Assembly (NCBI GenBank): GCA_013140805.1
Contig: JABFRW010000178.1
Coordinates: 1-44,707, forward strand
DNA: 44,707 nt
From: Candidatus Eisenbacteria bacterium
GTDB lineage: Bacteria; Eisenbacteria; RBG-16-71-46
Direction: 5' to 3'
How positions within the stretch are numbered: the first letter of the stretch is position 1; each line of letters begins with the position of its first letter. Below the pieces are notes generated by a model. It did no database searches. It was not told the origin of the DNA and was given only the letters and a program-made list of their open reading frames with translations. A program made the position numbers and the translations under genes. Shown piece after piece: positions 4,040 to 7,683 of this stretch.

Positions 4040-4069
4040 TTGACACTGTTCGCGCGCGCTGACTATCTT
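4040..4069 (+). promoter_or_regulatory. Sigma70-type promoter of the riboflavin operon
   Basis: A perfect TTGACA (4040-4045), an 18-base spacer and TATCTT (4064-4069) make the strongest promoter in the window. The predicted start, near 4076, lies just before the FMN aptamer-like sequence, as expected for a riboswitch-led transcript. Confidence 0.75.
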
Positions 4070-4078
4070 CGCCGCCTT

Positions 4079-4134
4079 GCTCCTTCGGGGCGGGGTGCCA
4101 GTTCCCCACCGGCGATAAAGCCCGCGAGCGGAGC
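4079..4134 (+). ncRNA. FMN riboswitch (RFN element), 5' half only
   Basis: The sequence matches the conserved first half of the RFN element. TTCGGGGC (4084-4091) starts the P2 strand GGGC (4088-4091), which pairs with GCCC (4120-4123). P3 is GGGG (4092-4095) with CCCC (4104-4107), followed by ACCGGCGATAAAGCCCGCGAGC. A closing P1-like helix, GCTCC (4079-4083) with GGAGC (4130-4134), is also present. The usual P4, P5 and P6 parts, including the conserved GTxAAAGTCxGGATG block, are absent. The location before ribD fits FMN feedback control, but an aptamer lacking this half should not bind FMN in the known way. Confidence 0.75.
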
Positions 4135-4177
4135 CTTTCGACGCCACGCGGCCCGCTGCCTCTCGGCGCGATCGTGC

Positions 4178-4207
4178 ACGCCCCGGGGACTCGTTCCTGC
4201 GGGGCGT
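4178..4207 (+). promoter_or_regulatory. Leader hairpin just upstream of the ribD ribosome-binding site
   Basis: ACGCCCC (4178-4184) pairs perfectly with GGGGCGT (4201-4207). The loop holds a second small pairing (GGGA with TTCC). GGAGG at 4216-4220 and ATG 4230 follow. There is no T-run, so it does not look like an ordinary terminator; it may be the expression platform of the riboswitch, acting on translation, or a Rho-linked structure. Confidence 0.45.
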
Positions 4208-4229
4208 CATTCGTTGGAGGACGGCACTC

Positions 4230-5310
4230 ATGGCAAAGCGCGGCGAGGACGACGAGCGGTTCATGCGCCGCGCGATCGCGCTCGCCGAGAGGGGGCGCGG
4301 CCACACCAGTCCGAATCCCGTGGTCGGTGCGGTCGTGACGCGCGCAGGCCGTGTCGTGGGAGAGGGCTGGCACCGCGCGCTGGGTGAGGCTCATGCCGAA
4401 GTGGTGGCGCTCGGCCGCGCCGGCGCGAAAGCGCGGGGTGCCACGCTCTACGTCACGCTCGAGCCGTGTGCTCACCGCGGACGCACCGCGCCGTGCGCCG
4501 ACGCCATCCTGGCGGCCGGCATCCGGCGCTGCGTGGTCGCGCTGCGCGATCCTCACGCGATCGTGAATGGCCGCGGCCTGCGTCGCCTGCGCGCCGCGGG
4601 CGTTCAGGTCGAGCTCGGGTGTCTGGCGGACGAGGCTCGCGAACAACTCGGCGGCTACTGGAGCGCCCACACCGAGGCTCGGCCGCGCGTGACGCTCAAG
4701 CTTGCAGCTTCGCTCGACGGTCGCATCGCACCGGCCGGCGGACTCGCGCGCCGAGGCGCGTCACGAAGTGCATCGCATGCGTTCGCTCACCGACGCGATC
4801 GTGATCGGATCCGAGACCGCGCGACTCGACGATCCGCGTCTCACCGTGCGCGGCGTCCGTGGCGCGCGCCAGCCGCTGCGCGTGGTGTGCGACGCCGATG
4901 CCTCGTTGCCGCTCACGCTGCGACTGTTCCGACCTCCGCTCGCGCGCGGAACCGTGCTGGTGTGCACGCGCCGCGCGACGCTCGCCCGAGTGCGCGCTTT
5001 CGAGCGCCGCGGCGTACGCGTGTGGCGCGTGCGTGCCGGCTTCGGTGGCGTGTGTCCGTCTACGCTCGCGGAACGACTGGCACGCGAAGGACGCCACGAA
5101 GTGATGCTCGAGGGCGGCGCCGCGCTCGCCGGCAGCTGGATTCACGCCGGCTACGTGGATCGCCTCGCGCTCTTCACGGCGCCCACCCTGCTCGGTCGCG
5201 ACGGCCTCGAGTGGGCGCCGCCGCTCGGCGACGCGATCCGGCGCGGACGCATCGAGCGCCAGCAGCGCCTCGGTGCCGACACGCTCACCCTGGTGGAGCT
5301 CGAACGCTGA
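4230..5310 (+). pseudogene. ribD: Riboflavin deaminase/reductase RibD, frame-disrupted
   Basis: Bifunctional RibD deaminates the pyrimidine made by GTP cyclohydrolase II and then reduces its ribose side chain. The deaminase half (from ATG 4230, ribosome-binding site GGAGG 4216-4220) is intact: SPNPVVGAV, the zinc ligands HAE (GEAHAEVVAL) and PCAHRGRTAPC. The reductase half begins KLAASLDGRIAPAGG and then loses frame at about 4740-4760; the continuation [16 protein letters not shown] ... GGAALAGSW ... TLVELER is one frame over and ends at 5310. The usual SxWIT(S) piece between the halves is missing, consistent with loss of roughly 11-17 bases. The original frame meets no stop and runs into ribE to 5921, giving a 563-codon open frame. 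This may be an assembly error. Confidence 0.85.
4777..5310 (+). CDS. RibD reductase half, possibly translated separately
   Basis: If the break in ribD is real, the reductase half could be made from ATG 4777 (preceded by GTG 4768). It keeps [11 protein letters not shown], the central nucleotide-binding strand region, [10 protein letters not shown] (the conserved ExGxxLxxxF/W element) and the C-terminal VELER. It lacks the first strand and the KxAxSLDGR motif that helps bind NADPH, so activity on its own is doubtful. No clear ribosome-binding site precedes ATG 4777. The stop overlaps the ribE start by one base (TGATG). Confidence 0.4.
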
Positions 5311-5921
5311 TGTTCACCGGACTGGTCGAGACCGTGGGAGTCGTGCAGCAGGTCGAGGAGCGCCCGGGCGGTCGCCGCTTCTGGATCGCCAGCGCCGCGA
5401 TCGCCGCCGGAGCGGCACTCGGGGACTCGATCGCAATCAATGGCTGCTGCCTGACCGCGATCGCGATCGAGCCGCAGCGATTCGCAGTCGAGGCGGTGCC
5501 GGAAACCCTCGCACGCAGCACGGTCGGAAGCTGGACGGACGGCACGCGAGTAAACCTCGAGCGCGCGCTGCGACTGGATCAGCGGCTCGGCGGGCATCTG
5601 GTCCAGGGCCACGTCGATGGCGCGGGCGAGGTCATCGAGATGCGCGCCGAAGGCGAGGGCCGCCGCCTGATCCTCGCGGTGCCGGGCGAGTTGTCGCGAT
5701 TCGTCGCGTTCAAGGGCTCGCTGGCGGTCGACGGCGTCAGCCTCACGATTGCCAGCGTCACGACGGCGGGGTGCGAGATCGCGCTCATCCCTCACACGTT
5801 GGCGGCCACCGTGGCGGGCGAGTACCGTGCCGGTTCGCGTGTGAACCTCGAAGTCGATCTGCTTGCCCGCTACGTGGCGCGCTTGCTCGAGACGACCCCA
5901 TCCCGGGAGAGTTCGTCGTGA
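5310..5921 (+). CDS. ribE: Riboflavin synthase, alpha chain
   Basis: Catalyses the dismutation of two 6,7-dimethyl-8-ribityllumazine molecules to riboflavin, the last step of the pathway. The 203-residue protein contains the two lumazine-binding repeats. The first starts [10 protein letters not shown] and includes [12 protein letters not shown]; the second includes [12 protein letters not shown] and [11 protein letters not shown]. The N-terminal MFTG is the highly conserved family signature, so ATG 5310 is the true start. It shares one base with the ribD stop and four with the following ribBA start (GTGA at 5918). Homotrimer in known relatives. Confidence 0.95.
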
Positions 5922-7204
5922 AGAAGAAGTCGAGCCGGCGAACCCTCCGCCCGGCGCGCAAGCCGCGCCCCGCGCGCCGCGCCGCCGCGTCGCCGTTCAT
6001 CGGCGTCGAGGAAGCGATCCGGCGCATCCGCGCGGGCCGCATGCTGGTGGTGGTCGACGACGCCGACCGCGAGAACGAAGGCGACGTGGTGTTCGCGGCC
6101 GAGAAGGCGACCGCCCGCATGGTGAACTTCGCGATCAAGCACGGCCGCGGCATCCTGTGCGCCCCGATGGCGCCCGAAGTCGCGGATCGACTCGATCTCA
6201 AGCTCATGGTGAGCCGCAACACCGCGCGCTTCGGCACCCCGTTCACCGAGTCGGTCGATGCCATCAAGGGCACCACGACCGGAGCCTCGGCGTTCGACCG
6301 CACGCGCACGCTGCGGGTGCTCGCGAATCCGCGCACGCGCGGCGAGGACCTGGCGCGCCCCGGCCACGTCTTTCCGCTGCGCGCGGTGCCGGGCGGCGTG
6401 CTGCGCCGTGCCGGGCACACCGAAGCGGTGCCCGATCTGTGCCGGCTCGCGGGTCTCCAGCCGGTCGGCGCGCTGTGCGAGATCCTGCGCGAAGACGGGC
6501 GCATGATGCGGCTGCCGGAATTGCAGACCTTCGCCGCCACCCACGATCTGGGGTTGCTCGCGATCCGGGATCTGATCGCGTGGCGGCGCCGCAGCGAGAT
6601 GCTGGTGCGCCGGCTGGTCTCGGTGCCGCTGCCGACGCCCGAGGGCAAGTTTCAGATGCACCTCTACGAGAGCACGCTCGAGAACGATCACCACATCGCG
6701 CTGGTGTTCGGCAAGATCCGCAAGGCCCGCCCCACGCTGGTGCGTGTCCACTCGCAGTGCCTGACCGGCGATGTGTTCGCCTCGCAGCGCTGCGATTGCG
6801 GTCCGCAATTGCGCGCCGCGATGCGCGCGATCGCAAAAAACGGTCACGGCGTCCTCCTCTACCTGCGGCAGGAAGGGCGCGGGATCGGGCTCGCGAACAA
6901 GCTGCGTGCCTACGCGCTCCAGGACCGCGGGCTCGACACCGTCGAGGCGAACGTCAAGCTCGGATTCCCCGCCGACCTGCGCGACTACGGCATCGGCGCG
7001 CAGATCCTCGTCGACCTGGGGATCGGAGCACTCGACCTGCTCACCAACAATCCGCGCAAGATCATCGGGCTCGAAGCCTACGGCCTCCACATCCGCAAGC
7101 GGGTCTCGATCGAACTCCCCTCGACGCGCCACAACCGGCGCTACCTCGCCACAAAGCGCGACAAGCTCGGGCACCTGTTGGATCTCAAGCTGGGGGAGAC
7201 GTGA
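5918..7204 (+). CDS. ribBA: RibBA: DHBP synthase / GTP cyclohydrolase II
   Basis: A 428-residue bifunctional enzyme supplying both riboflavin precursors. The N-terminal DHBP synthase domain (about residues 27-225) makes 3,4-dihydroxy-2-butanone 4-phosphate and shows [21 protein letters not shown] and PGHVFPLRA ... GHTEA. The C-terminal GTP cyclohydrolase II domain shows the zinc pattern [15 protein letters not shown] (Cys-x10-Cys-x-Cys), [10 protein letters not shown] and DYGIGAQIL. The residue before the first zinc Cys is Gln (HSQC) where Glu is common. The first 25 residues are a basic Arg/Lys/Ala-rich extension of unknown use. GTG 5918 overlaps the ribE stop, with GGGAGA at 5904-5909 upstream; the stop overlaps ribH. 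Confidence 0.95.
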
Positions 7205-7683
7205 GCATTCGAGAGTTGCGGCCCGGGCACGATGCGAGCGGGCACCGCTACGCGCTGGTGGCCGCACGCTTCAACGAGTCCTACGTCAAGCGCCTGGTCG
7301 ACGCGGCCTGCGAAGTGCTGCGCGGCCGCGGCGTGACTGACGAGTCGGTGACGCTCGCGTGGGTGCCGGGCTCCTACGAATTGCCGGTGGCCGCCAAGTG
7401 GCTGGCGGAACGCGGCGGCGTCGATGCGATCCTCGCGTTCGGCGTGGTGATTCGCGGAGAGACCGAGCACTTCCGCCTCGTCTCCGAGGCCGCCTCCGAG
7501 GGACTCCTGCAGGTGATGCTCGACTCCGGCCTGCCGGTCTTGAACGGGGTGCTGGCGGCCGAAAACGCCGAACAGGCGGCGGCACGTTCCGGCGGAGCGC
7601 TCGGCAATCGCGGCGCCGACGTGGCGCTGGCGGCGATCCAGATGGTGACGCTGCGACGCATCCTCGCGGGCGCGAACTCGTGA
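7201..7683 (+). CDS. ribH: 6,7-dimethyl-8-ribityllumazine synthase
   Basis: Condenses the RibD-pathway pyrimidine with DHBP to form the lumazine substrate of RibE. The 160-residue length is normal. Motifs visible are [11 protein letters not shown], the substrate-site strand [22 protein letters not shown] with the catalytic His, SEGL, and [21 protein letters not shown]. Family members form 60-subunit shells or pentamers. GTG 7201 overlaps the ribBA stop, and the ribH stop overlaps the nusB start, so translation is probably coupled along the operon. Confidence 0.95.

Follow-up and report, generated by a model that had tools for sequence, protein, structure and literature searches.

Half of an FMN riboswitch upstream of a frameshifted ribD in a Candidatus Eisenbacteria genome is probably a damaged or mis-assembled copy of a known element

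The riboflavin operon of this Candidatus Eisenbacteria genome is headed by a recognizable 5' half of an FMN riboswitch whose other half has no match in the window (the whole 44,707-nt stretch of DNA that was analyzed), and the question is whether a compact aptamer acts here or an ordinary one has been broken. Taken at face value, the locus would mean that half of a very well conserved riboswitch suffices for FMN sensing. The original prediction offered three readings: a compact, novel three-helix variant, a dead regulator or an assembly deletion. The window is contig C178 of a 215-contig, 3.8-Mb genome that is 96% complete, and we compared it with 19 other genomes of the same family and with one genome of the same order.

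The half-element occupies 4077-4129 on the forward strand (UUGCUCCUUCGGGGCGGGGUGCCAGUUCCCCACCGGCGAUAAAGCCCGCGAGC) and comprises the P1 5' strand, J1/2, P2 and P3 of the RFN element (RF00050). A sigma-70-like promoter (TTGACA-18-TATCTT) precedes it at 4040-4069 (+), where one was seen against 0.0 expected in shuffles and where relatives have it at the same location. The ribD start at 4230 lies 100 nt downstream and is followed by ribE, ribBA and ribH, a location upstream of riboflavin synthesis genes that is the expected one for this class. When the whole window was searched with Rfam at the curated cut-off, a single tRNA was returned and no FMN riboswitch. At a permissive threshold the RF00050 covariance model aligned to 4077-4229 with the 3' portion of the alignment almost empty, such that the covariance check called for at the outset does find the element, but at 21.2 bits and hence far below the gathering score of 66.2 bits. 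The P4, P5 and P6 helices that belong to RF00050 are not found in the window: the P5/J and P6/P1-3' motifs, present in 16/16 relatives, have only partial matches here that are no better than those in shuffles. The claims that a P2/P3 half stands upstream of ribD and that the P4-P6 half is absent are therefore borne out. An RF00050 search of the whole genome found no second element and no other half. Its sole additional match, on contig C146 (E 2.8, chance level), was rejected as a riboswitch part because the sequence reads as coding.

The retained half had been called nearly canonical, and it is indeed recognizable as RFN, but it departs at 3/53 retained columns that are invariant in the 16 relatives, each of which shows 0-2 such departures. 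A single event may account for two of the three, which both sit in loop L2. The remaining one, a G to A substitution at 4115 (+), removes the loop-closing pair of P3 at a position where G is found in 35/35 other distinct elements, other phyla included; P2 is present.

Alignment with related ribD leaders reveals a full aptamer at this point in close relatives, an outcome that had been named beforehand as one that would mark the truncated form as an artefact. A full-length element stands at the equivalent place in every same-family genome whose leader is complete (15 genomes), and in the same-order genome, in each case upstream of ribD and downstream of a similar promoter; the scores over the RF00050 cut-off are 89-115 bits (15/19 same-family genomes) and 116 bits (the same-order genome). 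The four same-family genomes that gave no match are G006, G004, G007 and G015. Two sister-genome contigs, G006:C171 (L171) and G004:C129 (L172), terminate inside the element, in P4 and P5, the ribD contig of G007 begins inside ribD, and no ribD match was found in G015. A weak 46-nt RF00050 match in G007 (C548:8216-8261) was judged to be a chance match to an intergenic palindrome. The truncated form is absent from all of the relatives compared, and searches of the family and phylum found no such compact form in another genome; a phylum-wide pattern search for the 5' half returned, besides the window, only elements known to be intact.

Downstream of most of the relatives' elements stands a GCCCCG...CGGGG hairpin, in many cases with a T tract. 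The window keeps this conserved expression-platform hairpin (ACGCCCCG/CGGGGCGT) at 4178-4207 (+), downstream of the aptamer, with a perfect stem and no T tract. Element start and hairpin are 103 nt apart in the window versus 168-220 nt in the 13 relatives with a recognizable hairpin. The missing length is therefore 65-117 nt, which would fit the loss of the P4 3' side, P5, P6, the P1 3' strand and some of the linker. The deletion junction lies somewhere within 4135-4177 (+). A breakpoint between 4129 and 4130, as first placed, is probably wrong, the break being more likely somewhat further 3', within the former P4 arm.

P1 was thought to be closed directly after the half-element by GCTCC (4079-4083) and GGAGC (4130-4134, +). 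Both strings exist and make a 5-bp match, but a closure cannot be read into them, as a GGAG turns up within 100 nt in 34% of shuffles, the window has another at 4216, and in intact relatives the position of GGAGC is the start of the P4 5' arm. This position reads GGAG in 3/16 of the relatives (G014, G002 and G008) and GGAT, GGAC or GGAA in others. The 26 nt that follow 4129 slightly resemble the P4 arms of relatives (31/500 shuffles were equally good) and have no resemblance to their P1-3'/linker segments beyond that of shuffles (265/500 as good). An isolated 60-nt piece can fold with the GCUCC/GGAGC pairing (-27.5 kcal/mol), but the minimum-energy fold of the 161-nt leader is without this helix and has an unremarkable energy (z -1.5). 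What is present is a 5-bp pairing at chance level and not a P1 helix that closes the six-way junction; GGAGC is best read, from these comparisons, as a leftover of the P4 arm or as chance.

The known structure of the FMN riboswitch shows what such a loss would entail. In it A48 and A85 sandwich the flavin ring, the P6 residues A85, G98 and A99 lie at the ring side of the pocket, and the phosphate is surrounded by G10, G11, G32, G62 and G84 (PMC7573352). Judged by alignment, counterparts of A48, G10, G11 and G32 appear to be kept in the window, whereas A85, G98, A99, G62 and G84 fall in the missing half, and because of this a ligand-dependent closure of P1 is not expected. The J1/2 segment CGGGGCG (4086-4092) is complementary to CGCCCCG, the 5' arm of the downstream hairpin. 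The same relation is seen across the family, for instance in the ribD leaders L024, L025, L026 and L028, where the 5' arm of the GCCCCGTGG...CCACGGGG hairpin and CGGGGC in J1/2 of the aptamer are complementary. The arrangement in the family leaders resembles direct aptamer-terminator competition, and the complementarity suggests how intact leaders may switch.

The gene under the control of this leader is itself damaged, by a 29-nt deletion that removes the conserved RWLTGP region and that the original prediction did not mention. The deaminase half of ribD keeps its frame from 4230 up to 4751 (+), and the reductase half (4753-5310, +) lies in a different frame without a start of its own. Between them, at 4745-4755 (+), is the lesion, with a net loss of 29 nt and a frameshift that removes ten residues (the RGxxRWLTGP region) before QAR/EAR. 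When the RibD of a relative is aligned to the window, its residues 11-192 fall in one frame (4248-4793) and its residues 188-370 in another (4750-5301), with the ten residues replaced by one nucleotide. The single open frame with deaminase and reductase domains that makes a bifunctional RibD is thus not found, there being two frames with a break at ~4750. Fifteen other genomes of the family have ribD as a single open frame, and G019 and G007 gave partial matches only. The gene of G011 is also split, in two frames (G011:C165:2058-3049) downstream of an intact riboswitch. Among 15 genomes, the reductase half of the window ribD ranks lowest in identity and departs most often at invariant columns; this divergence is slightly raised in the direction that relaxed constraint would predict, but it is small. 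The frame after the shift stays open and continues in frame into ribE, so that gene calling may yield a single chimeric ORF of 563 aa over 4230-5921.

The remaining genes of the operon, ribE (riboflavin synthase, 5307-5921, +), ribBA (5915-7204, +) and ribH (lumazine synthase, 7195-7683, +), are intact and full length, and each is above its model cut-off. No second full ribD was found in the genome, and a scan of the genome contigs with the N-terminal part of RibD gave only distant generic RibD loci, none of them recognizably close. One candidate for a replacement reductase, a stand-alone RibD_C protein (C184:15152-15610), was rejected: it matches RibD_C, but the riboflavin-specific reductase model gives it 32 bits, where the cut-off is 150 bits. 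Of the two riboflavin importer families tested, neither gave a match over its cut-off.

A codon-usage frame scan of a 542-kb sample that included the window (468 coding segments), in which 40/40 planted 29-nt deletions were detected, flagged hardly any further lesions. Two are no more than 320 nt from a contig end (L142:318 and L161:217), one is a weak case, and one gene, for an ABC-F type ATPase, holds all other clear interior frame switches. It is therefore unlikely that two lesions arose independently in a ~620-bp part of one operon. Deletion by way of short direct repeats was considered for both, but placing the breakpoints would require the parent sequence. The ABC-F gene (L186, G000:C172, 13885-15497) has two frame switches ~550 bp apart, and an intact, 84%-identical copy lies at G000:C188:13775-14608.

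These observations are best explained by an ordinary FMN riboswitch that would once have headed the ribDE-BA-H operon and of which the window keeps a remnant. One deletion would have taken the P4 3' side, P5, P6, the P1 3' strand and part of the linker (~65-117 nt), and what is left would be unable to form either the FMN pocket or a ligand-stabilized P1. If the leader is transcribed, the freed J1/2 segment CGGGGCG could pair with the 5' arm of the hairpin, giving an FMN-insensitive leader with constitutive read-through, and with the second deletion and frameshift in ribD the entire start of the operon would be damaged. The account that we prefer, with a probability little better than even, is that the lesion is a true one in the sampled cells and that the ordinary riboswitch has decayed somewhat further. 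The substitutions in the retained half and the slightly raised divergence of the reductase half speak for decay. Set against a true lesion are the intact ribE, ribBA and ribH, the perfect stem of the hairpin, and the failure to find a second full ribD or an importer over the cut-off in two families; a cell that really lacked ribD would have to take up riboflavin from its surroundings, an implication that speaks instead for assembly error.

That riboswitch and ribD are both normal in the cells themselves, and that both deletions arose while GC-rich hairpin DNA was being sequenced or assembled, is a serious contender to which we assign a probability somewhat short of one-half. The two sister contigs stop exactly inside the element, which marks the hairpin as a trouble spot; the two lesions lie close together in an assembly whose other clear interior frame switches, over the 542 kb scanned, belong to one gene; the remaining pathway is intact with no importer found in the two families; and frame switches near contig ends do occur. 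However, a pure deletion leaves the substitutions at invariant positions of the retained half unexplained, and the interior error rate of this assembly appears low. It is very likely that either real decay or assembly error, the dead regulator or the assembly deletion of the original prediction, is right.

The third of its readings, a functional compact three-helix riboswitch for FMN or another flavin closed by GCTCC/GGAGC, is not supported and is in our judgment very unlikely. The ability of the isolated piece to form the closing helix and the place upstream of the riboflavin operon are what such a variant would have, but the helix is missing from the fold of the full leader, GGAGC is accounted for by the P4 arm or chance, the family and phylum offer no second case, and a pair of P3 is broken. 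A85, G98 and A99 and the phosphate ligands G62 and G84 (PMC7573352) are gone as well, and the gene to be regulated is frameshifted. More improbable still is a flavin sensor with no helices beyond P1, P2 and P3, whose P1 3' strand would be provided anew by what was the base of the P4 arm and whose half pocket would bind FMN or another flavin. A split riboswitch, its second half supplied in trans from elsewhere in the genome, gains from crystal constructs made of two strands, in which P4 is left open and its loop is dispensable for structure (PMC7573352), but is largely refuted by the lack of any second-half match in the 96%-complete genome and is the least probable of all.

The closest known systems include the FMN riboswitch (RF00050) of the ribDE-BA-H operons of relatives, which has the same site, promoter layout, P2/P3 half and GCCCCG/CGGGGC hairpin; the window differs in lacking the P4 3' side, P5, P6 and the P1 3' strand, in its score and in its broken P3 pair. 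Roseoflavin-resistant Lactobacillus plantarum NCDO1752 and Leuconostoc mesenteroides carry RFN deletions upstream of the rib operon (PMC1570366), and as in the window these lie inside the RFN element and are expected to abolish FMN control. In contrast to the window, the deletion in the NCDO1752 mutant is small (9 bp), the downstream genes are intact and overproduction was measured (PMC1570366). In L. plantarum WCFS1, ribG (= ribD) is likewise destroyed by deletion in a natural genome while other rib genes remain, although there the deletion is a single one of ~1350 bp with PCR support and a riboflavin requirement was shown (PMC1570366). The subtype 2 variant of the FMN riboswitch in Clostridioides difficile is an FMN-like aptamer that does not bind FMN. 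Unlike the window it has nothing resembling a missing half: its described difference lies in nucleotides of the binding pocket, and the gene under its control is an efflux gene (PMC11477304).

The element thus looks like a damaged or mis-assembled copy of a known riboswitch, and as a finding it is ordinary. Given the comparison with relatives and the broken ribD, it is unfit as evidence that half a riboswitch can sense FMN. What the analysis usefully adds is the frameshift in ribD and the breaks in the assemblies of relatives; from the two sister contigs that end in the element, GC-rich aptamer hairpins may be points at which assemblies break. In practice the locus serves as a warning for metagenome assemblies, which break at GC-rich riboswitch hairpins: the downstream gene should be checked before truncated aptamers are named as variants.
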